Shown in pieces: positions 6,466 through 18,428 of a stretch of 21,794 nt of DNA (its first letter is position 1; each line of letters begins with the position of its first letter). The translations under genes and the position numbers were made by a program. The stretch lies in IMG/VR virus record IMGVR_UViG_3300036715_004281, positions 1-21,794 of that record; one strand, given 5' to 3'. The notes under the pieces were generated by a model. That model saw only the letters and a program-made list of their open reading frames with translations. It was not told where the DNA came from and did no database searches. The stretch comes from a virus.

Positions 6466-7061
6466 AGGGTCACCGCCCCGCCGAGCAGGCGCCCCTCCCT
6501 GGCCTCCCTGCCCTCGCTCTCCACCAGCTCGCCGGAGAGCAGGCCCAGGAGCACGGGGATGAGGGGGAGGCCATCGCCGACAAGATGCACAAATTGTGCT
6601 TCGATCGCGGCGTCGCCGAGGTGTGGCGGGTGTCCAGCCACATCAAGATAGGCAAGCCGACCGGCCGCCACCCGGACGAGCATTACGCCTACGTCAAGCC
6701 TGGCCCCGGGTCGGTCGACTGCCGCGGCGCGATGGCCGACGGCCGCGAGGTCCAGGCCGAGGTCAAGCACCTCCGCCAGCAGCGCCGGGAGAGCGGCAAC
6801 GGGCTCGCTCCGCTCCGTCTCGACCTCTCCCGCGTCAAGGAACACCAGCAGGCCCAGCTCGCCCGCTGCGAGGCCCGTGGCGGCGTCGCGGTCATCCTCT
6901 GCACGGTGCACGAGCTGCTCGCCTTCGCCGTCCCCTGGCGCGTCGCCCGGGCGGTGCTGGTCAGCGGCCGGGCCTCCCTCGATGAGGCGACCCTGCGGGC
7001 TCACACCTGCGTGCCCCTGCAGCCCTACCTCCGCGAGTTCGCCCGGCCGAGGTCCCCGTGA
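6462..7061 (+). CDS. RecU-like Holliday-junction resolvase (199 aa)
   Basis: Resembles RecU/PD-(D/E)XK resolvases, which cut four-way DNA junctions. The signature is SVDCRGAMADGREVQAEVKH: D86 begins the metal site, E100-x-K102 is the E-x-K pair, and a later KEHQQAQLARCEARGG helix and VAVILC strand match the conserved Q-x-x-L-...-GG block of RecU. Length (about 200) fits the family. GTG 6462 overlaps the previous stop. It is the last gene before the terminase genes, consistent with a job of removing branches from replicated DNA before packaging (inference). Confidence 0.75.
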   Translation: MKGHRPAEQAPLPGLPALALHQLAGEQAQEHGDEGEAIADKMHKLCFDRGVAEVWRVSSHIKIGKPTGRHPDEHYAYVKPGPGSVDCRGAMADGREVQAEVKHLRQQRRESGNGLAPLRLDLSRVKEHQQAQLARCEARGGVAVILCTVHELLAFAVPWRVARAVLVSGRASLDEATLRAHTCVPLQPYLREFARPRSP

Positions 7062-7672
7062 CCAAGAAAGGCAAAAAACAGCCGAGATCTGCCTCCCCCG
7101 ACGACGGTGGTTTGACTCCTGCGCGCGACCCTCCCCCCCCGCCCCCGGTCTGCCTTCTCGGGGAGGCTCCCCCAGTCGAGGACCGGGTTCGCCACATCGC
7201 CGCCCTCATGGCCGGGGGCTGGTGGTCCACCGCCAAGGCTCACGAACTGGCCGGGCGGTGGGGGCTCAGCCTGAGCGCGATCAAGTGGTCGTCGGCGGAG
7301 GCCTCGCGCCAGCTCAAGATGTCGCGCGGCGACCTCGACGAGCAGCGGGAGACCAACCTGGGCCGCCTCGAAGCCGCCTACACCCTCGCCATGGGCTCCG
7401 GGGATGCCCTCGCCGCCGTCACCGCCGTCAAGGCCATCGCCCAGGTCGACGGCACGCTCGCGCCGAAGAAGAGCGCCGAGACGGATGCCTCCGGGAAGGA
7501 TCTGCCCCGCACGCCCCCGCTCCCCCCGCAGCTGCAGGCCCTCGCCCAGGACCCCCGGTTCATCCGCCTCTGGGCACTCCTTGGCGCCCGCCCCACCCCC
7601 GCCCAGCTCGAGCAGCTGCAGGCCGGCACGGCGCCCGAGACCATCGCCGCGCTCCTGCCCCCAAAGGGTTGA
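7058..7672 (+). CDS. Probable terminase small subunit (204 aa)
   Basis: A basic, Pro-rich N-terminus (about 40 residues) precedes a helix-turn-helix-like segment, STAKAHELAGRWGLSLSAIK, after the RHIAALMAGGW helix. A long helical region follows (RETNLGRLEAAYTLAMGSGD, AAVTAVKAIAQV), suited to oligomerisation. Small terminases recognise phage DNA through an N-terminal HTH and form rings through helices, and this protein sits shortly upstream of the large terminase gene. The family match is by architecture and position rather than a diagnostic motif, so another HTH regulator is possible. GTG 7058 overlaps the resolvase stop; this is the last link in the chain of 4-base overlaps. Confidence 0.55.
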   Translation: MTKKGKKQPRSASPDDGGLTPARDPPPPPPVCLLGEAPPVEDRVRHIAALMAGGWWSTAKAHELAGRWGLSLSAIKWSSAEASRQLKMSRGDLDEQRETNLGRLEAAYTLAMGSGDALAAVTAVKAIAQVDGTLAPKKSAETDASGKDLPRTPPLPPQLQALAQDPRFIRLWALLGARPTPAQLEQLQAGTAPETIAALLPPKG

Positions 7673-7683
7673 GATGGAACCCT

Positions 7684-7753
7684 GCATGCCTGTCCAGTGG
7701 ATGAAGTTGATCGATGCATCCATCTGGTCCACCATGGATCGACCATGGGTACC
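7684..7753 (+). promoter_or_regulatory. Palindrome-rich leader with two overlapping hairpins
   Basis: Between the small-terminase gene and the next start, base composition falls and six palindromic hexamers occur in 70 bases: GCATGC, ATCGAT, ATGCAT, CCATGG twice and GGTACC. CCAGTGGATG (7694-7703) can pair with CATCCATCTGG (7717-7727, one bulged T). TGGTC (7725-7729) can pair with GACCA (7741-7745), and that stem covers the ATG at 7745. The two stems share bases and exclude one another. A translational switch or a processing site is possible; no promoter consensus is evident. Confidence 0.35.
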
Positions 7754-8302
7754 AAGACCGACGCCGCTCCCGCGCAGCCCGCCTCTCCCCTCCCCAAGGG
7801 CGACCCGCTCGCCCCCCAGCCCCCGCCGCAGCCCGGTGCGTCCCCGCTACCGAAGGGCGACCCGCTGAACCCCAACGGGCCCAACGGCCCGGGCCCCGGC
7901 GCCGCGCCCCAGGCCCCCCAGGGCAACCCGCCCGCGTCCCCCCCGCCCGATGACCGCCCCGCGGCCGACCGGGGCCAGGATGGCGAGGGCCCCGCCCCCG
8001 CGGACCTTCCCTCGGGCTTCGCTGCGGCGGCCAAGCAGTTCCGGCTTGGGGGCCACGCCCTCCTCGGCAAGATTGCCGAGACCGCCGGCCTGCCCGAGCC
8101 CGTGCGCTCTGCTGCCCACGACATCGCCTTCGCCGTGAACACCGGGCTCGCGCCGGCGGCGGTTCAGGGCCTGCAGAAGATCGGGCCCGAGGCCTTGGGG
8201 CGCCTCGTCGACGAGGTCATCGAGGAGAAGCTCGACCAGGCCGGGGTGACGGCCCTCCTGCGCGAGCGCTTCCCCGAGCCCCAGAAGCGCATCGTCGCCT
8301 GA
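7745..8302 (+). CDS. Hypothetical protein, proline-rich N-terminus (185 aa)
   Basis: I do not recognise this protein. The N-terminal ~80 residues are disordered, Pro/Gly/Asn-rich, and carry the exact nonapeptide SPLPKGDPL twice, 19 residues apart. The C-terminal ~95 residues form a helical domain (FAAAAKQFRLGGHALLGKIA, EALGRLVDEVIEEKLDQAG). The start is uncertain: ATG 7745 has only a weak upstream GGA; GTG 7697 in the same frame is also possible. ATG 7674 has a good AAAGGG site but reads another frame to a stop at 7868. It lies between packaging genes, so a structural or packaging role is likely. Confidence 0.6.
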   Translation: MGTKTDAAPAQPASPLPKGDPLAPQPPPQPGASPLPKGDPLNPNGPNGPGPGAAPQAPQGNPPASPPPDDRPAADRGQDGEGPAPADLPSGFAAAAKQFRLGGHALLGKIAETAGLPEPVRSAAHDIAFAVNTGLAPAAVQGLQKIGPEALGRLVDEVIEEKLDQAGVTALLRERFPEPQKRIVA

Positions 8303-8310
8303 CCTGGGCC

Positions 8311-8754
8311 GTGGTGGAGCTGCCCGCGGTCGTCACCCTCCTCTGCCTCGCGCTCGCTGTCGGCGCGGCGCTCGGGGCGTGGTGCGTCCTGCGCTTTGGC
8401 TCGCCTCCTCTGCCCGCTGGCGTGCCGCTCGCGCCGGCCCTGCTCCTTGCGCCGCCTCTGCCGCCCGCGCCGGCCCCGCTCCCGCCCGTGCCCCCCGGCC
8501 TGCTCGGGCGCTTCCTCGGGCCTGCTCGGGCTGCTGCCGAGGCAATGCACGAGGCCAGGGGCGAGGACCCCGAGGAGACCGCGCAGATCCTCGCCCAGCT
8601 CGCCGCTGATCACTGGAGCCTCGGCGTGGGCGAGCTGCGCCAGGCCCTCATCACCCACTCGGCCCTCACGCCCGCTCTCGCCGAGGTGCTCGCCGAGCGG
8701 GCGATCGTGGCCCTGGAGGCGCGCCATGCACTCGGCCCTCGCCCTCGCGCTTGA
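8311..8754 (+). CDS. Single-pass membrane protein, proline-rich (147 aa)
   Basis: GTG 8311 starts a protein with a clear N-terminal membrane helix at about residues 5-27 (VVTLLCLALAVGAALGAWCV), then a Leu/Pro/Ala-rich segment to about residue 70, then a helical domain of roughly 75 residues (PEETAQILAQLAADHW). This resembles a membrane-anchored protein with one cytoplasmic or periplasmic domain. A spanin or holin-associated role is conceivable but unsupported by any specific motif. Its 3' end overlaps the large-terminase start by 29 bases. Confidence 0.6.
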   Translation: MVELPAVVTLLCLALAVGAALGAWCVLRFGSPPLPAGVPLAPALLLAPPLPPAPAPLPPVPPGLLGRFLGPARAAAEAMHEARGEDPEETAQILAQLAADHWSLGVGELRQALITHSALTPALAEVLAERAIVALEARHALGPRPRA

Positions 8755-10531
8755 GGAGGCTCTGTCACCCGCGGAGCTCGAGGCCATCGCCCTCCGGCTC
8801 TGGGCGGACGAGATCGAGCGCGCCCGCACCGACGTCAACACCTTCGTCGAGCTGTGCGCCCGGAACGACCAGGAGGACGGCAGCCCGCCGTTCGTCCAGC
8901 AGTGGTTCCACCGCGAATGGCAGGAGAAGTGGTCGAACGAGCCGATCGTCGTCATTCACGGAGCCACGGGCTTCGGGAAGACCGAGCAGATCCTCTTCCA
9001 CCTGCTCTGGCGCATGGGGCGGAAACCCGGCATCCGGATCCTCCTCCTCGGCAAGCAGCAGGAGAACGCCCGCCGGCTCCTGCGGAAGATCCGTCGCCAG
9101 ATCGAGGCAAACCCGATGGTTCGGGCGGTGTTCCCGGAGCTGGTGCCGGGGCTCCCCTGGACTGATGACCGCCTGCGGCTCGCCGGCGCCGGCATCGACA
9201 CCACCACCGACACCGTCGAGACCTACGGCCTCGACTCGAGCCCGCTCGGCACGCGCGCCGACATCGTCCTCGCTGATGACGTGGTCGACTTCGAGAACAG
9301 CCTCACCGAATACCAGCGGAAGAAGCTCATTAGCTTCCTCGACCAGTCCATCCGGACGCGCATGACGACGCACGGCCAGTTCTTCATGCTGGCCAACGCC
9401 TGGCACGAGGACGACGCGGCCTTCGACTACTCGAAGCGCGCGGGCGTCTGGTACAAGGCCTATCCCGCGGCGAACGACTCGGGCGAGCTCCTCTGGCCTG
9501 CCTTCCGCCCCCAGGCCTGGCTCGACAAGCAGCGCGCCTCGACGCCCCTGGCGAGCTTCGAGCGGATGTACCTCTGCCGCCCCCGGAGCGACTCGACGCG
9601 CATCTTCCAGGGCCCCTGGTTCGCTCTCGCCCGGAAGCTCGGCGCGGGCGTGCAGCCGATCCGCCGTGTCGCGCAGGCCTTCGACCGGCAGGGCGCGCTC
9701 ATCGACCCGGCGAAGATCCACCTGATGGGCGTCATGATGGCGACCCGCATGCGGGTTGTCATCGGCGTCGACCTCGCGACGGGCAAGAGCGAGAAGAAGC
9801 GAAAGAGCGACCTCACCGTGTTCTTCGTCCTCGGGATTCACCCCGACGGCCGTCGGCAGGTTCTCTGGATCGAGAAGGGACGCTGGTCGGCGGACGTCAC
9901 CCTCGAGCGCCTTCGCGCCCTCGACCAGCGCTACCAGCCTGAGCTCTTCGTCGTCGAGGACAACGGCGCCCAGGTCTTTTTGTCCCAGTTTGCCCGCGCC
10001 GCGGGGCTCGAGACGCCGATCTTCGACTTCTCGACGAACGCGCAGAAATGGCACGAGAGCCTGGGAATCGAGGGCATCGGCGTCGAGATGCGCGCCGGCC
10101 GGTGGATCATCCCCGCGCCGGCCGAGAACGACAACGAGAGCGAGTACCGGGGCCGGCTCGAGGCCGAGGAGCTCGAGGCCTACCTCGCGATCCGCGACTG
10201 GTCCTCGCACCTCCTCGACTTCTCCCGCGTCGGCCACACCGCCGACGACGTGATGGCCGGCTATTTCGCCAAGCAGGGCGCGCTGATGATCGCCGGCGGG
10301 ACCTTCCAGCACAGCCACGCGGCCGAGATGGAGACCCTGCCGCCCGAGTTCCGCGACCAGCAGGCGATCGGCGACTGGGGCACCGTCCAGGCCCTCTTTG
10401 CGCCCGCCCCGCCGGCCGCAGCCCCCGTCGCCGAGATCGCCCCCGCGGCTCCTTCGCCTGCAGCCCCGGTCGATCCGACTGTTCCCGCCCTCCCCGACCA
10501 CATCCGGCGCCTCTTCGGCGCTGCTGCTTGA
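8726..10531 (+). CDS. terL: Terminase large subunit (601 aa)
   Basis: The packaging motor ATPase and nuclease. The ATPase has Walker A GATGFGKT (79-86), Walker B IVLADD (180-185) and the coupling-type segment LANAWHEDD. The RNase H-like nuclease has IGVDLATG (D349), SDLTVFF (D362), VVEDNGAQ (E411-D412) and TADDVMAGY (D507-D508), i.e. the expected acidic residues for two-metal cleavage of concatemers. The tail beyond residue ~550 is Ala/Pro-rich. ATG 8726 has GGAGG six bases upstream (8715-8719). About 600 residues is a usual length. The portal gene follows nine bases later. Confidence 0.95.
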   Translation: MHSALALALEEALSPAELEAIALRLWADEIERARTDVNTFVELCARNDQEDGSPPFVQQWFHREWQEKWSNEPIVVIHGATGFGKTEQILFHLLWRMGRKPGIRILLLGKQQENARRLLRKIRRQIEANPMVRAVFPELVPGLPWTDDRLRLAGAGIDTTTDTVETYGLDSSPLGTRADIVLADDVVDFENSLTEYQRKKLISFLDQSIRTRMTTHGQFFMLANAWHEDDAAFDYSKRAGVWYKAYPAANDSGELLWPAFRPQAWLDKQRASTPLASFERMYLCRPRSDSTRIFQGPWFALARKLGAGVQPIRRVAQAFDRQGALIDPAKIHLMGVMMATRMRVVIGVDLATGKSEKKRKSDLTVFFVLGIHPDGRRQVLWIEKGRWSADVTLERLRALDQRYQPELFVVEDNGAQVFLSQFARAAGLETPIFDFSTNAQKWHESLGIEGIGVEMRAGRWIIPAPAENDNESEYRGRLEAEELEAYLAIRDWSSHLLDFSRVGHTADDVMAGYFAKQGALMIAGGTFQHSHAAEMETLPPEFRDQQAIGDWGTVQALFAPAPPAAAPVAEIAPAAPSPAAPVDPTVPALPDHIRRLFGAAA

Positions 10532-10539
10532 GGCCCTCC

Positions 10540-12144
10540 ATGGACCCCGTCACGGACTTCCTCGCCCTCGCCCTCTTGCCCGAGAAACTGGCTGCGACCT
10601 TGCGCCACCGCCGGCTCGTGATGAGGGAGCGGTACTGGCGCGGCACGCAGTACGAGGATCGGCCCCTCGACATTCAGGGCTACCGCAAGGCCAGCCGCGT
10701 CTACGGCTCGGGTGTCCGGACGCCGCCCTGGGAGGAGCGGGATCCCGGCGCGGTCTGGAACCTGCGGGGCGAGGTGGTCTCCGAGATCACCGACTGGACC
10801 CTCGCCGGCGACAGCTGGTGCCGCCTCACCGTCGCCGACGACGAGGCCGCCGAGGACTGGCTCGGGGCCGTGGCCGGGCTCACCAACATGAGCGACGTGC
10901 TCGCCCAGGCCCGCGACTACGGGGGCGCGATGGGCACAGCCGTCGTGTCCTTCCTCTGGCGCGAGGGCCGGTGCTCGCTTGAGGCCCACAACCCCCGCCT
11001 CTGCTGGCCCCTCGCCTGGCGCGACGCCCAGGAGCACCGCCCTGCCGCCGTCGCCATGGTCTTCCGGGGCGAGGATCCCTTCGCCGGCAGCGACGACGAG
11101 CAGCCTCTCTTCGCCCGCATCTGGACCGAGACCGATGAGTCGCTGCACGAGCGGGTGAAGAACCCCGACGGCTCCGAGAAGCCCTGGCGCTGGGAGGAGG
11201 TCGAGCGCGTGGCTCACAGCTTCGGGTTCTGCCCCGTGTACTGGTACCCCCAGCACGCGGTCTCGGGCTCGCACGAGGGCACCCCGGACGGCGCCGAGAC
11301 CGAGGGCGAGATCGACGAGGCCAACATGCTCTTCGCCGCCGCGGGCGTCACGACCATGCGGAACGCTGACGACACGCTCGTCATCCGGGAGGACCCGGCG
11401 CTCAACCCCGGCAACGTCCGGAAGGGCGCCTTCAACACGATCTTCGCCCGGGGCGGCGCCGAGATCCTGAGCCAGAAGGGCGAGTCGGCCACCATCTGTA
11501 TGACCATCGCCGAGAAGCGCGCGCAGCACGTCTATCGGCAAAGCGGCGTCGTCATGGTGGACGTCGAGACGCTCAAGGGCGCGGTCTCGGGGGAGTCCCT
11601 CCGGCGCATCTTCCAGCGCACGCTCAAGACCGCTGCCACGGGACGCCGGGGCTATGCCAAGGGCCTGATCGTGCCCCTCGCCCAAGGCCTCCTCGCCTCG
11701 GCGCGAATCCTCCTCGCCCGGGGCCTCGCGCTCGACGTGCCGCCCCGCGTGACCTCGGAGGAGGTCCTGGGCGCCGTCAAGGTCGAGCCCCGCATCCCGG
11801 GCAAGTCGAGCTTCGTCGAGTGCGTGTGGCCTGACGCCTTCCCGCCCGGCATCACCGACCAGAAGGCCATGATCGACGCGGCCGGCGCCGCCACCGGGGG
11901 CAAGCAGGTCATGAGCCGGGCGACGGCCGTGGCCTGGCTCGCCGCCAGCGCCATCCCGATCACCTCGGTGCAGGAGGAGCTCGAAGCCATCGAGGCCGAC
12001 GAGGAGGCCGCGGCCGAGCGCCAGCAGACCGCCTTCGGCCTCGCGCCGGACACCCCGGGCGCCGCGGGCCCGATCGGGGCGAAGGACCCCGCGGAAGGCG
12101 AGCAGGAGGCCGAGACGAGCGGCGGGAAGGTGGCAGCGGAATGA
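10540..12144 (+). CDS. Portal protein (534 aa)
   Basis: Assigned as the portal, the dodecameric channel at one capsid vertex, from size (about 530 residues), position between TerL and the MuF-like head protein, and overall pattern. An early basic segment (RERYWRGTQYEDRPLDIQGY) and a mixed beta region are followed by a long helical stem stretch, GAVSGESLRRIFQRTLKTAA, and an acidic Glu/Ala-rich C-terminal tail from about residue 480. The protein is not of the lambda GpB type; it is nearer SPP1-type or uncharacterised portals. ATG 10540 follows TerL by 8 bases. The stop overlaps the zinc-ribbon gene's ATG. Confidence 0.8.
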   Translation: MDPVTDFLALALLPEKLAATLRHRRLVMRERYWRGTQYEDRPLDIQGYRKASRVYGSGVRTPPWEERDPGAVWNLRGEVVSEITDWTLAGDSWCRLTVADDEAAEDWLGAVAGLTNMSDVLAQARDYGGAMGTAVVSFLWREGRCSLEAHNPRLCWPLAWRDAQEHRPAAVAMVFRGEDPFAGSDDEQPLFARIWTETDESLHERVKNPDGSEKPWRWEEVERVAHSFGFCPVYWYPQHAVSGSHEGTPDGAETEGEIDEANMLFAAAGVTTMRNADDTLVIREDPALNPGNVRKGAFNTIFARGGAEILSQKGESATICMTIAEKRAQHVYRQSGVVMVDVETLKGAVSGESLRRIFQRTLKTAATGRRGYAKGLIVPLAQGLLASARILLARGLALDVPPRVTSEEVLGAVKVEPRIPGKSSFVECVWPDAFPPGITDQKAMIDAAGAATGGKQVMSRATAVAWLAASAIPITSVQEELEAIEADEEAAAERQQTAFGLAPDTPGAAGPIGAKDPAEGEQEAETSGGKVAAE

Positions 12145-12341
12145 GCCAGCCGGCCCCGCCCACGCTCATTGAGCTCGACGACTATCGGCCCGTCTGGGCC
12201 ACCTCAAAGGCCCGCTGCGGGGCTTGTGGGCATCGCTGGATCGCGGCCTGGCCCGCGGGCCTCGGGTCCAGGGATCACGGCTGGGAGTGCTCGGCCTGCG
12301 GGCAACTGGCCGGGCTCGAAGTCGAGCGCGTGCTTGGGTAG
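12141..12341 (+). CDS. Zinc-ribbon protein between portal and MuF genes (66 aa)
   Basis: A small zinc ribbon with C26-x2-C29 (RCGACGHRW) and C50-x2-C53 (ECSACGQ), after a short LIELDDYRPVWAT segment. ATG 12141 overlaps the portal stop. The gene ends at TAG 12339-12341, the only non-TGA stop in the window. The same frame continues as the MuF gene after one codon (CCC) and a TTG. It may therefore be made both alone and, by amber readthrough, as an N-terminal extension of MuF. Role otherwise unknown; it could be a minor virion or DNA-contacting protein. Confidence 0.75.
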   Translation: MSQPAPPTLIELDDYRPVWATSKARCGACGHRWIAAWPAGLGSRDHGWECSACGQLAGLEVERVLG

Positions 12342-12344
12342 CCC

Positions 12345-14198
12345 TTGGCCCGCTCGCCCGTCGTCCCCCGCTCCTTCGTCGAGCCGGTCCCCGCGGCCCA
12401 GGCGCGCAGCCGCGTCCAAGAGATCGTCGACGCCGACCGGGCCGAGGTCGAGCGGGCCCTCATCACGAGGAGCAAGCAGGAGCTGCTCATCCTCCTGTTC
12501 CGCGCCGAGGCCGAGCTGGCCGCCGATGTCCGGCGCCTTGAGGGGCCCGAGGGAAAGGAGCGGACCTGGACCCAGCACGACGCCGACGCCTCGCTCGCGC
12601 AGATGAGGCTCGTGCTCGGACGCGTCGAGCCACGCTTCGTAAAGGTCCTGCAGAAGCAGGGCCTCATGGCCTACGGCCTCGGGGTCAAGGCCGCGATCGA
12701 CGTGCTCGCGCACTACGAGCAGGCCTCGGGCGGGGTGCTGCGGCCGCTCGCCCTCCGGCCCGCGCTCGCGCTCGAGCAGACCCTCATGAGCCGCTATCCC
12801 TCTTCGGTGGCCCGCTACGGCGCCCACGCGGTCGAGGTGTTTCGGCGCGAGCTGCAGACCGGCGTGCTCGCGGGTCGGACCTTCAGCGAGATGACGAAGC
12901 GCCTCGAGACGAAGGGGGGCGACCCCGGGGCCCTCGTGCAGAGCGCGGGGTGGGCGGCGCGGATTGTCCGCACCGAGGCAATGCACGCCTACGCCACCGG
13001 CACTGATCAGGAGATCCACGCCCAGCGGCTGCGGCGATTCCCCGACCTGTGCCGGAAGCTCATCGAGACCTTCGACAGCCGCACGGCCGCCGACAGCCGC
13101 GTCGCGCACGGCGAGGTCCGCGGCCCCGATGACCCCTTCGTCGACGGCGCCGGGCGCATCTACATGATCCCCCCCGGCCGCCCCAACGACAGGGCCGTGA
13201 TCATCCCCTGGCGCCGGGCCTGGGAAGAGCCAGAGAGCACCGCGCCGGGGCCTGTGGTGCCGCGGCCCGTCGTGGTTCGTCCTGTGGCGATCATCCCTCC
13301 ACCGGCGCCGCCAGCGCCGCCAGCCCCGCCCCCTCCAACACCCTCGATCGTCGTGCGGCCTGCCGAGCTTCCCGCGACGACCATGGCGCGAGCCTTCCTG
13401 GCCGCCAATGGCAGCCGCAGCCCTGGCAACCAGGCTCGCCAGCGCACTGCCGTCCGCGCGATGCTCGAGGGTGAAGGGATCACCTCGGTCGACGTGGCGG
13501 CGTCGCGCCCTGACGCGGGCAAGATGCACATTTTCCCGGGAAGGGGCTCTCTTCGCGGAACGCACGACTGGCGCGGCAAGATCAAGATCCAGCGCCAGGT
13601 GTTCGACGAGGCGATCGCAGGCATGCGTGCTCTCGACGCAGGGCACACCCTGACCAACCCACAGATCAACGGACTGCGGACGCTCACGCACGAGGAGCTG
13701 CACGGAGCGAGCCGCATCCAGCCGGGGGGCTATCGCGCGCACGGCGTTGGCATCGAGGAGGCGCTCACCGAGCTTTCCGCTCGTCGGCTCCTCGCCAGCC
13801 GCCTCGGTCTTCTGCCCGACACCCTGCCCCACGATCACCCCCTGTCAGGTCCTTTCGTCGACCCGATCACGGGAGAGTTCCGTCACGGGCGGCCCGGCTC
13901 CTACGATCACTTCATCGAACGCCTGGCCGAGCACGTCGCCACGGTCAGCATCCCCACCACGGCCCCGCGGAGCGAGATCCTCGCTCGTCGCGCCCTGATC
14001 CCGCTCCAGCTCGAGGCCGCGGTGAAGGTTCTCCGGGGGCCCTCGACTCCCCCCTCAGCCTCGATCGCCACTCCCAACGAGCACGCCCAGGCGCTCGGGC
14101 GCGCCCTTGGCTTTTCCCCCGCGCAGGTCGACACCTTCGTTGCTATCCTGCAGTCTGACCCGCGGATGATGCAGGCGCGGAGGCGGCGACGACGATGA
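12345..14198 (+). CDS. MuF head-morphogenesis protein with C-terminal HEXXH metallopeptidase-like domain (617 aa)
   Basis: Residues ~1-290 are Mu gpF-like: helical, then RIVRTEAMHAYATG (from 206), with a late FDSRTAADSRVAHGEVRG and MIPPGRPNDRAVIIPW in place of the usual PNCRC ending. Residues ~300-345 are a Pro/Ala/Val linker. The C-terminal ~270 residues are a distinct domain with THEELHGAS (HEELH 449-453) and GIEEALTELSAR (E471, E472, E476), the layout of a gluzincin-type zinc peptidase. MuF proteins connect portal and capsid, and phage MuF proteins with variable C-terminal enzymes are known as polymorphic toxins. A prohead-maturation protease is an alternative, as no other head protease is visible. 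The TTG start lacks a clear Shine-Dalgarno. Confidence 0.8.
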   Translation: MARSPVVPRSFVEPVPAAQARSRVQEIVDADRAEVERALITRSKQELLILLFRAEAELAADVRRLEGPEGKERTWTQHDADASLAQMRLVLGRVEPRFVKVLQKQGLMAYGLGVKAAIDVLAHYEQASGGVLRPLALRPALALEQTLMSRYPSSVARYGAHAVEVFRRELQTGVLAGRTFSEMTKRLETKGGDPGALVQSAGWAARIVRTEAMHAYATGTDQEIHAQRLRRFPDLCRKLIETFDSRTAADSRVAHGEVRGPDDPFVDGAGRIYMIPPGRPNDRAVIIPWRRAWEEPESTAPGPVVPRPVVVRPVAIIPPPAPPAPPAPPPPTPSIVVRPAELPATTMARAFLAANGSRSPGNQARQRTAVRAMLEGEGITSVDVAASRPDAGKMHIFPGRGSLRGTHDWRGKIKIQRQVFDEAIAGMRALDAGHTLTNPQINGLRTLTHEELHGASRIQPGGYRAHGVGIEEALTELSARRLLASRLGLLPDTLPHDHPLSGPFVDPITGEFRHGRPGSYDHFIERLAEHVATVSIPTTAPRSEILARRALIPLQLEAAVKVLRGPSTPPSASIATPNEHAQALGRALGFSPAQVDTFVAILQSDPRMMQARRRRRR

Positions 14199-14395
14199 GC
14201 GAGCCCAGCGAAGACGACGACTACCTCGATTATCCTGGCCGGAATGACGTCCCGGGCGCGCTCGCGTTCATCCGGGAGGTCGGCTCCCTCAACAGCGACG
14301 ACGTCGAGGTGCTGCTCAGGCTGCAGGACGATCCGACCGAACTGGAAGCCGCGATCGAGAAGCTCGAGGCCGAGGGCTTCCCCGTCGACGACTGA
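14195..14395 (+). CDS. Very acidic small protein, candidate immunity or DNA-mimic (66 aa)
   Basis: ATG 14195 overlaps the MuF stop, so the two are translationally coupled. Of 66 residues, 20 are Asp/Glu and only 4 are Lys/Arg. The N-terminus is SEPSEDDDYLDYPG, followed by two probable helices (NDVPGALAFIREVG and PTELEAAIEKLEAEG). Immunity proteins of polymorphic toxins are often small, acidic and placed right after the toxin gene, which fits; acidic DNA mimics that block restriction enzymes are an alternative. No family is recognised. The gene ends six bases before the stop of the convergent reverse-strand cassette. Confidence 0.65.
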   Translation: MSEPSEDDDYLDYPGRNDVPGALAFIREVGSLNSDDVEVLLRLQDDPTELEAAIEKLEAEGFPVDD

Positions 14396-14401
14396 TGTCG
14401 C

Positions 14402-14731
14402 TCAGGCGATCTGCGCCGCCGCTTCCCAGGCCAGCCACGCCTCTGCCCGCCGCAAGGCGTCCCAGCTCATCGCTACCGCCATCGTCGGGGCCGCGAGACG
14501 CCGCCGGATCTCCTCCTGGACCACGATGGCCAGGCCACCCCCGAAGTGGATCAGGTGAGCCGCAGGAGAGGGGGTGATTGGTTGCGCAGCGATGTGGAGT
14601 TTCAGAGCGTCGAGGTGCTGGGGCGACACCAACACGACCTCGAAGGAGGATGGTGCAGCCTTGATCCTCCGCTTCATCTCCCGCACGTCGTCGAGGGAGA
14701 TTCTGCTCTCGAGGGTGCGCGGGAGGCTCAC
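14402..14731 (-). CDS. Hypothetical protein of the inverted cassette (109 aa)
   Basis: Second gene of a reverse-strand pair, starting at GTG (14731-14729) that overlaps the stop of the ribbon-helix-helix gene. The sequence begins MSLPRTLESRISLDDVREMK, continues with FEVVLVSPQHLDALKLHIAA and SPAAHLIHFGGGLAIVVQEE, and ends with an Ala/Trp-rich helix. That suggests a small alpha/beta fold. I do not recognise the family, so a toxin, an anti-defence factor or a virion-unrelated accessory protein remains open. It ends six bases from the convergent + strand gene without space for a terminator. Confidence 0.6.
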   Translation of the reverse strand: MSLPRTLESRISLDDVREMKRRIKAAPSSFEVVLVSPQHLDALKLHIAAQPITPSPAAHLIHFGGGLAIVVQEEIRRRLAAPTMAVAMSWDALRRAEAWLAWEAAAQIA

Positions 14732-14904
14732 GCCACCTTGCCCTGGTGGCGCCGATCGGCCATCTCGCGAATCGCTGTCCTGATGAGGTCAGACTCGTTG
14801 ACGGCCCCGGTCACCTCCTTCAGACGCTCGAGATCTTGCTGCGTGTCGGCGTGCGCCCTCACGCGGAGCAAGCGGAAGGGCTTGGGCTCGTGGTTGCTGC
14901 TCAT
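14728..14904 (-). CDS. Ribbon-helix-helix DNA-binding protein (58 aa)
   Basis: The peptide shows the CopG/Arc-type ribbon-helix-helix plan: a beta strand FRLLRVRAH (residues 10-18), helix A TQQDLERLKEVTG, then the turn and helix B NESDLIRTAIREMADR, and a basic tail. RHH proteins bind operators as dimers and are frequent antitoxins or small repressors. Two palindromes lie 31-68 bases upstream of its start, suggesting autoregulation. ATG is at 14904-14902 with GGGAGG directly abutting it, an unusually short spacing; no alternative upstream start exists in frame. It is coupled (GTGA) to the 109-residue gene behind it. Confidence 0.75.
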   Translation of the reverse strand: MSSNHEPKPFRLLRVRAHADTQQDLERLKEVTGAVNESDLIRTAIREMADRRHQGKVA

Positions 14905-14934
14905 CCTCCCTTCGTACCACGCACAGCACCCATC

Positions 14935-14949
14935 TGCTACGGAATAGCA
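14935..14949. promoter_or_regulatory. Operator-like palindrome 1 (TGCTA-N5-TAGCA)
   Basis: TGCTACGGAATAGCA has 5-base arms either side of a 5-base centre. It lies 31-45 bases before the ribbon-helix-helix ATG, and its centre (14942) is 22 bases, about two helical turns, from that of the second site. The same half-sites in the gap give an overlapping inverted pair (ATAGCA...TGCTAT, 14944-14962). Likely bound by the RHH product; promoter elements themselves could not be called. Confidence 0.6.
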
Positions 14950-14955
14950 TACCGT

Positions 14956-14972
14956 GTGCTATCCAATAGCAC
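14956..14972. promoter_or_regulatory. Operator-like palindrome 2 (GTGCTAT-CCA-ATAGCAC)
   Basis: A perfect 7-base inverted repeat with a 3-base centre, the stronger relative of palindrome 1. It lies in the AT-richer 143-base region (14905-15047) between the divergent genes starting at 14904 (-) and 15048 (+), so it could control either or both. The remaining 75 bases to 15047 show no further repeat and no promoter that I can call with confidence. Confidence 0.65.
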
Positions 14973-15047
14973 TCAGGTGACCCACGATAAAACCAACGAT
15001 CTTAGTCACTTGCGAGACTTACCCGTCCCGCGCATCCTGCGTGAGGC

Positions 15048-15758
15048 ATGTCGGGCTCGCTCCAGCTCACTCTCTCGGTCGTCACGGCCGATCCGTCTGC
15101 GGTCTCCTCGGCGCAGCAGGCACAGGTGCGCGACCCGGTGGCGTCAGTCCATGAGTACGTGGACCAGACTCCGCGCAACGTCTCGACGCCGGGCGCCCTC
15201 GGCGCAGCCTTTGTGATGCTGGAGACGCCGGTCCAGCAGGTCGAGCGCCTCGTCGCCGATCTGCCGCCCGGCACAGATCTCATCCTCCGCACAGGAGGCC
15301 TCCCCGCGGTCGTCGTCGGCACCGTCACGGGCGCCATCGCCCCCGCGGGCGGCGAGACGCTGGCCTTCCAGGTCGACGGCCTTGGGGCCGTCACCGCAAC
15401 CCTGCAGTCGGGGGATACCAACATCGCCCTCGCCGCCAAGCGGCTCAACTATGCCGCGGGCTCTCAGGTCGCGAGCCAGGACCCGATCACGGGCGGACTC
15501 CGCGTCGCGGGCCAGCTGACCGGCGGCGCGAGCGCGCAGGCCCGGGGCTGGCAGGCGGGGAGCGTGCAGCTGGTTTCGGGCTCCGCCCTCGGGCTGCTCG
15601 GCCTCGTCCCGGGCACGACCTGGGGCGCGGGCGACGACCAGCGCCTCGGTGCGGGCCCCTTCGCAAAACCCTTCCCCGCCGCGGCCTTGCCCCGGCGCAT
15701 CGAGCTCTCGGGCACGTCGTCCGGGGCGAAATTCTGGATCGCCGGCAAGGCGAGCTGA
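15048..15758 (+). CDS. Beta-rich virion protein with a sheath-type insertion domain (236 aa)
   Basis: Residues ~101-190 (GGETLAFQVDG ... ALGLLGLVPGT) follow the same strand order as residues ~180-255 of the tail sheath at 20663 (GGEVLGLALDSG ... ATTLGLAAGT): a GGE-x-L strand, a VTAT/VTF strand, a helix with an RxN/RIN, a strand, a Gly-rich loop and a final LGL. This beta domain is known as an add-on in phage tail proteins. Residues 1-100 and the tail (RIELSGTSSGAKFWIAGK) are unrecognised. ATG 15048 has GAGG only one base away; an in-frame TGA just upstream excludes an earlier start. Probably a virion surface or neck protein. Confidence 0.65.
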   Translation: MSGSLQLTLSVVTADPSAVSSAQQAQVRDPVASVHEYVDQTPRNVSTPGALGAAFVMLETPVQQVERLVADLPPGTDLILRTGGLPAVVVGTVTGAIAPAGGETLAFQVDGLGAVTATLQSGDTNIALAAKRLNYAAGSQVASQDPITGGLRVAGQLTGGASAQARGWQAGSVQLVSGSALGLLGLVPGTTWGAGDDQRLGAGPFAKPFPAAALPRRIELSGTSSGAKFWIAGKAS

Positions 15759-15768
15759 GGACACCACC

Positions 15769-16188
15769 ATGACCACGACTCGCGCCGCGATCGACCGCGG
15801 CGACACCAACAACCTCCCCGCCGCGATGCGCCTCAGCAAGGCTGGCAGCGTCCTGCATGCCGGCGGCGTCCGCATCCAGCGCGACGTGGGCCTCGCCGTC
15901 ACGGGCGACGCCACGGCGCCGAAGTACACCATCAAGAAGCTCCTCTTCTGCGAGGTGACGGGCGGCTCGGGCGGCAACGAGGAGAAGGCCCCGGTGCTCC
16001 GCGGCGCCACCGTCGCCGCTCACCAGGCCGCGCCCGCGGCCGACGGCAAGACCATCGGCTTCTACGCCTCCGAGGTGACAGGCCCGCTTGCCGTCGCCGA
16101 GATCCACTACACGACCACCGACCCGGTCAAGGACGAGGACGGCAACGTCGCCCAGCTCTTCGACGACACCAAGACGGGGCTCATCTGA
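15769..16188 (+). CDS. Hypothetical virion protein, possible head decoration (139 aa)
   Basis: ATG 15769 follows a GAGG eight bases upstream and ends one base into the scaffold gene's start. The sequence begins MTTTRAAIDRGDTNNLPAAM and is mostly predicted beta: VLHAGGVRIQRDVGLAVTG, KYTIKKLLFCEVTG, GPLAVAEIHYTTTDP. No family recognised. Small beta proteins just before scaffold and capsid genes are often decoration proteins, which is the basis for the suggestion. The larger in-frame reading from 15649 overlaps the previous gene and is not used. Confidence 0.6.
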   Translation: MTTTRAAIDRGDTNNLPAAMRLSKAGSVLHAGGVRIQRDVGLAVTGDATAPKYTIKKLLFCEVTGGSGGNEEKAPVLRGATVAAHQAAPAADGKTIGFYASEVTGPLAVAEIHYTTTDPVKDEDGNVAQLFDDTKTGLI

Positions 16189-16910
16189 TGCCCGCCTTCA
16201 TGCGACTCGCTCTCGGGATGGCCATCCTGATGAACGCGGCCACGGGCGGCGAGGGGGCTGGCGCCGGTGGTGCGGCCGTGGGCGCTGCTGGGGCTGGGGC
16301 CGCCGGCGCAGGCGCCGCTGCCCAACAGACCCCCGCGCCCCCCGCCTTCGATGCACAGAAGGCCAAGGCTGAGGCCCGCGCCGAGACCCTTCGCGAGATG
16401 GGTTTCACCTCCGAGGAAGCCTACAAGGCTCACCTCGAGGAGAAGAAGGCTGCCGACGAGGAGAAGCGCAAGGCCGAGGACGCCAAGCTCTCGGACGGCG
16501 AGCGCCACAAGAAGCTCTACAACGAGGCACAGGAAGCGCGCGCCAAGACCGAATCCAAGTACGAGGCCGAGAAGGCCGCGCGCAAGGCGGCCGAGGACGC
16601 GCTCGCCCTCCGTGATCGCCTCGACACCCACGGCGTCGCGGCCGGCGAGCGCAAGTTCGTCGAGGTCGAGCTGCACGAGGCGGAAGGCCTGGCGAAGAAG
16701 GCCGGCCAGGCCTTCGACGAGGCGAAGTTCTTCGCCGACCTGCGGGCGAAGCGCCCCTACTTCTTCGGCTCCGCGGCCCAGGCCCAGGCCGCCACCACCG
16801 GCACGCGCCAGGTGGCCGCAGCCACCACGAAGGCGACGACGCAGAGCGGCTACGTCAATGCCGCCGAGATGACCGACGAGCAGTGGCGCGCCTGGAACCA
16901 GCACAACTGA
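16188..16910 (+). CDS. Scaffolding-like protein (240 aa)
   Basis: Placed directly before the capsid gene. After a short hydrophobic start and an Ala/Gly stretch (about residues 20-50) it becomes a long, highly charged helix (about residues 55-145; EEKKAADEEKRKAEDAKLSD, AKTESKYEAEKAARKAAED) of coiled-coil type. It then has a C-terminal region ending TDEQWRAWNQHN. Composition, helical charge pattern, length and gene order match phage scaffolds that assemble inside the prohead and leave it. The start ATG overlaps the previous stop by one base. Confidence 0.75.
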   Translation: MPAFMRLALGMAILMNAATGGEGAGAGGAAVGAAGAGAAGAGAAAQQTPAPPAFDAQKAKAEARAETLREMGFTSEEAYKAHLEEKKAADEEKRKAEDAKLSDGERHKKLYNEAQEARAKTESKYEAEKAARKAAEDALALRDRLDTHGVAAGERKFVEVELHEAEGLAKKAGQAFDEAKFFADLRAKRPYFFGSAAQAQAATTGTRQVAAATTKATTQSGYVNAAEMTDEQWRAWNQHN

Positions 16911-16937: not shown

Positions 16938-18428
16938 ATGTCCCTCGCTCTACTGCCCGGCGGCACCATCCCCTCGCTCGGCCTCCTCATCCTCAACAAT
17001 GCCCTGATCCGCAAGGGGAAGGACTCCCTCCGGCCCATGGCGCGCTACCGCGCCGACGCCGAGCGTGAGGAGCTGCCCCCAGGGATCGGCACCTCGCTGA
17101 ACTTCCAGCGCCTGGGCCTCCTCGACGTCAACCTGAAGCCCGCTGCGACGCTCGGCGCGACCGACCGCGGCTCGTACGAGGTCGAGCGCTACACGGCAAA
17201 CCCCCTGCCGTATGCCAACAGCGTCGACATCGACGCGATGACCGCCTACGTGCAGACCGTGGGGCGCAAGCCCGAGCAGGTCATCACCCGCCTGTCGGAG
17301 TGGTGCGGCCGCACCTCGAGCCGCGTCGCCCGCGGCAAGCTCTTTGGCGGCGCTTTTGCGGGCTTCACGATCATCCGCCGCACGCAGGGCTCGGGCACGA
17401 GCATCCTCCTGGTCGACAGCCTCTCGGGCTTCCGCTTCCAGTACCAGAGCGGCGCCCCGGTGGCGGTCTCGGCGACCAACGCCATTCCGATCACCATCGT
17501 CGCCGGCTCGACGATCACCAACCGCAAGGTGACGGGTTACACGCCTCTCGACGGCAACTACCCGGACGGACCCGGAGAGCTCACCCTCGACGGCAGCCTC
17601 GGCGCCTCGGTGGCCGCCGGCAGCTACGTCTTCGTCCAGCGCAACCCGAACGCGCTCACGCAAGCGCCGTACATGGTGCGCGCCGGGGGGCGTGCCTCGA
17701 GCGAGGCCATCCTCGCGACCGACTTCCCCGTCTATCGGGATATCCTGAAGATGCGGCAGCGCCTGGTCGACCGCGGCGTCATGCCGCACGCCTCGACCGG
17801 CACGTACCACCTGCACGTCGACGCGGCCTTCCGCGAGAAGATCACCGCCGACTCGGCGTACCAGGTGGCCTTCCAGGGCGCGGGGCTGTCGCCGATCTTC
17901 GGTGCGGGCTCCTTCTTCTCGGGCGCCGAGGGCATCACCATCCTCGAGAACAACGACAGCCCGGGCGTCGGCAAGGGGCACGAGGTCATCGTCGGCTCCG
18001 CGGGCTTCTCGGGCACGGGCGGCACGGGTTCCCCTGGCTCGAGCATCCAGATGCAGGACATCGGCCTGCCCCTCGTGAACAGCAGCGGCGTCGTGATCCG
18101 CCGGGCCATCATGACCGGCGAGGAGGTCCTCACCGAGGCCTACATCGACCACCGCAAGGTGCTCGAGGCGGGCGGCGCGAAGCTCATCCACTCCTTCGGG
18201 GAGATGGCCAGCTACGACCTCAACGGCCGGCAGTTCCTCGCCGGGAACATGGACGGCTGGTGCCTCATGATCCGGCCGCCCCTCGACGAGCGGGCGATGG
18301 TCTCGACCGTGTCGGTGATCAACTACTTTGACTTCGTCCTGCCGAGCGACGTGCTGTCGGCGGCGAACGCGAACGACACGACGCCGTTCAAGCGCGCGAT
18401 CGGCCTCGAGTACGGCAGCGACTGGTGA
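16938..18428 (+). CDS. Major capsid protein (496 aa)
   Basis: The largest virion protein of the segment, after the scaffold and before the neck genes. ATG 16938 has GGAG seven bases upstream (16927-16930), a strong initiation site. The sequence has an N-terminal arm (SLGLLILNNALIRKGKDSL), basic and acidic segments near residue 40, several beta-rich stretches, and HLHVDAAFREKITADSAY, with a C-terminal part rich in Asp/Asn, consistent with a HK97-fold shell protein of the larger (about 500-residue, P22- or N4-gp56-like) type. The call rests on position and length more than on one diagnostic motif. Confidence 0.75.
   Translation: MSLALLPGGTIPSLGLLILNNALIRKGKDSLRPMARYRADAEREELPPGIGTSLNFQRLGLLDVNLKPAATLGATDRGSYEVERYTANPLPYANSVDIDAMTAYVQTVGRKPEQVITRLSEWCGRTSSRVARGKLFGGAFAGFTIIRRTQGSGTSILLVDSLSGFRFQYQSGAPVAVSATNAIPITIVAGSTITNRKVTGYTPLDGNYPDGPGELTLDGSLGASVAAGSYVFVQRNPNALTQAPYMVRAGGRASSEAILATDFPVYRDILKMRQRLVDRGVMPHASTGTYHLHVDAAFREKITADSAYQVAFQGAGLSPIFGAGSFFSGAEGITILENNDSPGVGKGHEVIVGSAGFSGTGGTGSPGSSIQMQDIGLPLVNSSGVVIRRAIMTGEEVLTEAYIDHRKVLEAGGAKLIHSFGEMASYDLNGRQFLAGNMDGWCLMIRPPLDERAMVSTVSVINYFDFVLPSDVLSAANANDTTPFKRAIGLEYGSDW

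Follow-up and report, generated by a model that had tools for sequence, protein, structure and literature searches.

Head genes and the MuF protein

The window (the whole 21.8-kb viral record analysed here, 21,794 nucleotides) contains a single copy of a gene encoding a MuF head protein with a predicted C-terminal gluzincin-like peptidase domain (12345–14198; plus strand, as for the other head genes and the small partner ORF below). This gene lies directly 3′ of the portal and terminase genes. The terminase large subunit (8738–10531) matches phrog_38 (E = 1e-53) and the portal ORF (10048–12144), in which the true start lies later than the ORF start, matches the portal family phrog_64 (E = 8e-6). 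Portal homologues are also present directly 5′ of the MuF gene in the related loci L002, L003, L005, L007 and L014. Further downstream, the gene of a scaffold-like protein (16188–16910), so named from its position and composition and with homologues before the capsid gene in L002 and L003, precedes that of a candidate major capsid protein (16938–18428), which shows a weak match to phrog_1357 (E = 0.007) and is kept in L002, L003 and L005. The gene order of the window, terminase–portal–MuF–scaffold–capsid, is that of phages such as SPP1, which are not known to need a head protease.

Several other ORFs of the window were annotated. A small CxxC zinc-ribbon-like ORF (12141–12341) is located between the portal and MuF genes, and a 109-aa ORF on the minus strand (14402–14731), antiparallel to the head genes, occupies the gap that follows the small ORF described below; no homologue of either was detected in related loci. 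At the other end of the window, Prim-Pol, PriCT-1 and VapE-like helicase domains (PF09250, PF08708 and PF05272) are fused in one ORF (195–2861) that forms a replication module, adjoined by a DUF559/MTES_1575 endonuclease-like protein (PF04480; 3190–3843).

The MuF ORF encodes 617 aa from a TTG start, and its reading frame is open up to the end previously given for it. A preliminary description of this DNA had recognized a MuF head protein, a proline linker and a separate HEXXH domain; its coordinates and residues proved exact, and this architecture is confirmed as real, both domains being present in L003, L002 and L014 as well. The core of the MuF domain (residues 166–285, 12840–13199) matches Phage_Mu_F (PF04233) with E = 8e-5, a weak match under the curated cut-off, and head morphogenesis families of PHROGs. 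Among the relatives, the L002 protein clears the PF04233 cut-off (32.0 vs 29.6 bits), those of L014 and L003 fall marginally short and those of L012 and L013 score well over it. The family profile (A4), built on an alignment with 34 invariant columns, unites 79 MuF ORFs. The proline-rich linker that follows (residues 294–345, 13224–13379; 38% Pro) has about 50 residues in the window protein, and linkers of the relatives differ in length and content. The L002 protein (13375–15549) has about 150 extra residues between the MuF and peptidase domains that give no Pfam match and possibly correspond to a second effector domain; their assignment to a ParB-like domain was rejected for want of Pfam support. 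Searches with the whole protein and with its C-terminal domain against phage and plasmid records, and with the whole protein against named phages, returned no match, nor was any found for either among PDB sequences or, for the C-terminal domain, in Pfam or PHROGs.

The putative peptidase domain

The C-terminal domain (residues 345–617, 13377–14195) belongs to a family (A5) that we aligned from 11 sequences sharing 20–49% identity. For none of the 11 members could we detect a credible Pfam or PHROGs family, or a match to the described MPTase-PolyVal families of Pfam, and the family is uncatalogued in both Pfam and PHROGs. A single low E-value between the L046 sequence and ApbA_C was taken as chance, and matches of the domain profile to PDB sequences (Gogy, a designed helical protein, ebh) were rejected because they involve the helical tail only.

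Two conserved motifs point to a zinc site. The HEELH motif (residues 449–453, 13689–13703) contains two predicted zinc ligands and the general base (H449, E450 and H453), and the EEALTE motif (residues 471–476, 13755–13772), carried by the next helix, contains E471, E472 and E476; these six residues are invariant in the 11 sequences, together with A479, Y520 and one arginine, and H407, G454 and Y463 are near-invariant. From the spacing, E472 is likely the third zinc ligand (HExxH-x18-E) and E476 a likely ligand-orienting acid, in what we take to be the position of the thermolysin acid that orients a histidine ligand. Nowhere in the domain is conservation higher than at the predicted ligands and the general base. 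The HEELH motif alone is modest evidence, since HExxH occurs in 2.9% of shuffled sequences of equal composition; its invariance together with E471, E472 and E476 in 11 sequences exceeds what chance would give.

The AlphaFold2 model of the full domain is compact and confident (pLDDT 88.8, pTM 0.89). It presents three short strands, the HEELH helix with the motif at its end and the glutamates on a later helix, in a zincin-type order. Foldseek comparisons with the PDB placed the M4 peptidases ProA, vibriolysin and LasB at the top for the full domain (E = 0.1–0.9, none significant), and IrrE, selecase, PprI and abylysin at the top for the domain core (model pLDDT 84; E = 0.04–0.6, none significant), so that gluzincins head both lists. 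The modelled domain seems to resemble the M4 peptidases, the minigluzincins selecase and abylysin and IrrE/PprI in having an HExxH helix followed by a Glu-ligand helix and a small sheet, but differs from them in its weak, non-significant fold scores, the lack of a sequence match, the HExxH-x18-E spacing and the conserved second acid E476.

Because two histidines, the glutamate of HExxH and a glutamate on the following helix make up the gluzincin pattern, we read the domain as gluzincin-like and conclude, from the alignment and the model, that it is probably a divergent gluzincin-like peptidase, which would bind zinc and cleave proteins. The zinc site that the preliminary description had placed on a domain separate from the MuF fold is borne out by the invariance of the residues, H449, H453 and the glutamates being retained in all 11 homologues, by the confident model and by gluzincins being the best, albeit weak, fold matches. 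Regarding the fold itself, the model, the order of its elements and the ranking of gluzincins agree with that proposal, but the fold matches are non-significant.

Distribution of the domain and the small partner ORF

Relatives with a MuF gene at the same place were reached by scanning uncultivated viral contigs with the terminase; a portal-based scan found nothing. The peptidase domain is common to L003 (48% identity) and L002 (37% identity), the MuF protein of L005 stops at the MuF domain without a peptidase, and that of L007 ends in an unrelated tail rich in lysine. Three more carriers, L012, L013 and L014, came from scans with the domain alignment; in L012 and L013 the domain, with its partner, is attached to a distinct MuF type. 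A scan with the MuF domain led to a set of 80 loci, in which the profile detected the peptidase in L057, L061, L063, L064, L024 and L046, and the carriers found number 12. No host could be assigned, because the domain alignment had no match in genome contigs and the MuF alignment recovered no more than five MuFs from metagenome-assembled genomes, all lacking the peptidase domain.

The MuF stop codon of the window overlaps (ATGA) a small ORF of 66 aa (14195–14395) encoding an acidic protein (20 D/E vs 4 K/R), a candidate immunity protein or inhibitor hereafter called the partner. Partner homologues are encoded directly 3′ of the peptidase in L003 (E = 1e-16), L002 (E = 6e-6), L014, L012, L013, L061 and L063, and no homologue is present at this place in L005, which is without the peptidase domain. 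Profiles of four partners searched against 2108 ORFs gave the partners of L012 and L013 as the next best matches (E = 0.003 and 0.03). A small ORF starts between −26 and +23 nt from the MuF stop in all 12 carriers; eight of the 12 partners fall into one homology group, and those of L057, L064, L024 and L046 have no detectable homology to this main group. An ORF of 40–110 aa adjoins the MuF gene in 11 of 12 carriers vs 11 of 33 short MuFs (p = 6e-4, uncorrected for the kinship of the loci); in three carriers, the mechanical ORF picker passed over the homologous ORF for a longer frame overlapping it. The partner family is previously undescribed. In L003, the partner ORF (10442–11056) extends to 204 aa with homology stopping near residue 60, corresponding either to a lost stop codon or to a sequence error.

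The domain and its partner look like one inserted cassette, since another conserved small gene follows the partner in L064, L046, L063 and L057 and lies directly 3′ of the MuF gene in L040, the short-MuF sister of L057. In the siblings L061 and L063, identity amounts to 94% for the MuF part, 76% for the peptidase and 81% for the partner, and dN to 0.04, 0.17 and 0.16, respectively. With dN/dS ratios of 0.30 for the partner and 0.09 for the peptidase, both are thus genuine genes under selection, and they diverge more rapidly than the MuF part does. The peptidase domain has been repeatedly transferred: the tree built from 67 MuF domains requires six or more gains or losses of it, every change being forced by well supported branches.

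The slot occupied by the peptidase is filled by ADP-ribosyltransferases in L070, L073 and L079 and by many unassigned domains in other MuF relatives. Other C-terminal domains come with other small-ORF families (L027/L031/L039, L026/L036 and L034/L098). These loci present the features of MuF polymorphic toxins, i.e., variable C-terminal enzymes on a conserved MuF part and a downstream small ORF specific to the toxin type.

Some of the extensions were noted individually. Those of L034, L098, L070, L073 and L079 contain ADP-ribosyltransferase domains or are homologous to such extensions, and L027, L031, L033, L039, L043 and L050 have MuF extensions of 590–870 aa, partly of one family, without a credible Pfam match. 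The L049 protein (6764–9181), of the same MuF lineage, has a different zincin-like extension with an HELGH motif and no match to A5.

Possible roles of the peptidase and its partner

The arrangement of the slot in the relatives, with ADP-ribosyltransferases, other domains and their own small ORFs, is that of MuF polymorphic toxins and their immunity genes. The window gene shares with these toxins the MuF N-terminus, the position adjoining the portal gene, the variable C-terminal enzyme and the small ORF directly 3′; it differs from them in that its peptidase family is outside Pfam and PHROGs, its partner family is undescribed, no integrase was found in related records and its group consists of uncultivated phages for which no relative was found in phage or plasmid records. 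Among 191 published MuF toxins, 20% have a metallopeptidase domain (Jamet et al., 2017; PMC5576092). For two MuF toxins, Apk2 (PMC12226406) and Bxa (PMC11699363), inhibition by adjacent small immunity genes was demonstrated experimentally, and from these precedents we favour the reading of the gene as a MuF-type polymorphic effector, which is probably a virion-borne zinc peptidase kept silent by the 66-aa partner. The MuF part would be a minor head protein, produced with the portal protein and carried within the capsid, and the C-terminal domain an active gluzincin-type zinc peptidase on a flexible proline-rich linker. The partner, translated immediately after, would bind the peptidase and thereby inhibit it in the producing cell. 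After infection, the packaged and injected peptidase would reach the new host with the partner left behind and could exert toxicity by cleaving a host, prophage or competitor protein. Delivery with the DNA and action on the host or on competing phages, as suggested in the preliminary description, are plausible, and this idea is strengthened because the partner ORF travels with the domain and other toxin domains occupy the same slot.

That description had also considered maturation of the prohead. The peptidase could act in cis by cutting MuF at the linker, whose length and flexibility make it a possible cut site, or mature the scaffold and capsid proteins, and self-processing of the polypeptide has been proposed for zincin domains of polyvalent proteins (PMC5512222). 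In the subset of window ORFs scanned against Pfam, nothing contradicted the statement that a second head protease is not visible in the window. However, L012 and L013 carry the domain together with a separate ClpP/Mu-I head protease (PF00574, PF10123), which is likewise encoded in the head cluster but has a different fold, and L005 retains the portal, MuF and capsid genes and the scaffold position in the same order without the domain. Prohead maturation is unlikely for these reasons; with the unrelated enzymes filling the slot in relatives, the six or more changes that the MuF tree requires and the SPP1-like gene order also speaking against it, we regard a role in cis or in the prohead as quite improbable. 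Still harder to accept is the view of the domain as a degenerate, inactive zincin retained as a structural or binding module: its sequence is overall far diverged from all known peptidases, but the ligands and general base are what its 11 members conserve best and its dN/dS between the siblings L061 and L063 is as low as 0.09.

A more serious competitor, though one we consider unlikely, is that the peptidase arrives with the DNA as a harmless enzyme of take-over or counter-defence, the small ORF encoding a folding or packaging chaperone. Zincin peptidases borne by polyvalent phage proteins have been proposed to work as soon as they arrive (Iyer et al., 2017; PMC5512222), the partner has no more than 60–90 aa, and, as no integrase was found in the related records, shielding a lysogen may not be its purpose. 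Like the zincin-like MPTases of polyvalent proteins, the window domain is a phage zincin fused to a virion protein and thought to enter with the DNA; unlike them, it is toxin-like, stands alone and is accompanied by a partner ORF instead of being part of a giant multi-domain protein, and it has no match to a Pfam MPTase. Against a chaperone, the small-ORF families track the families of C-terminal domains, ADP-ribosyltransferase types included, as immunity predicts, and the MuF precedents with experiments use inhibitors.

The reading as an effector with its own inhibitor bears on the lifestyle of these phages. The MuF toxins published so far occur in temperate phages only (PMC5576092). We found no match to tyrosine integrases (PF00589) or serine recombinases (PF00239) in 15 related viral records of up to 91.6 kb, possibly fragments, with positive controls, and this absence questions the published tie of MuF toxins to temperate phages. 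Tentatively, in phages without an integrase and possibly strictly lytic, the partner might silence the capsid-bound peptidase during assembly, packaging might remove the partner and the injected peptidase might disable host defences or competing phages at entry, a scenario that is conceivable but rather doubtful. Should these phages be lytic, it is assembly and not a lysogen that the partner would protect.

The peptidase and its partner are real and functionally coherent, and the earlier interpretation of the gene is partly supported. With an uncatalogued peptidase family and a matching family of small genes, the short list of enzyme types known from MuF capsid proteins grows. The two genes provide a clear system in which to ask whether virions really deliver MuF toxins, a question made directly testable by natural pairs with vs without domain and partner (L057 vs L040, and the window group vs L005). 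If the lytic scenario is true, MuF toxins would be extended from competition between lysogens to lytic take-over, with an undescribed family of peptidases and inhibitors.
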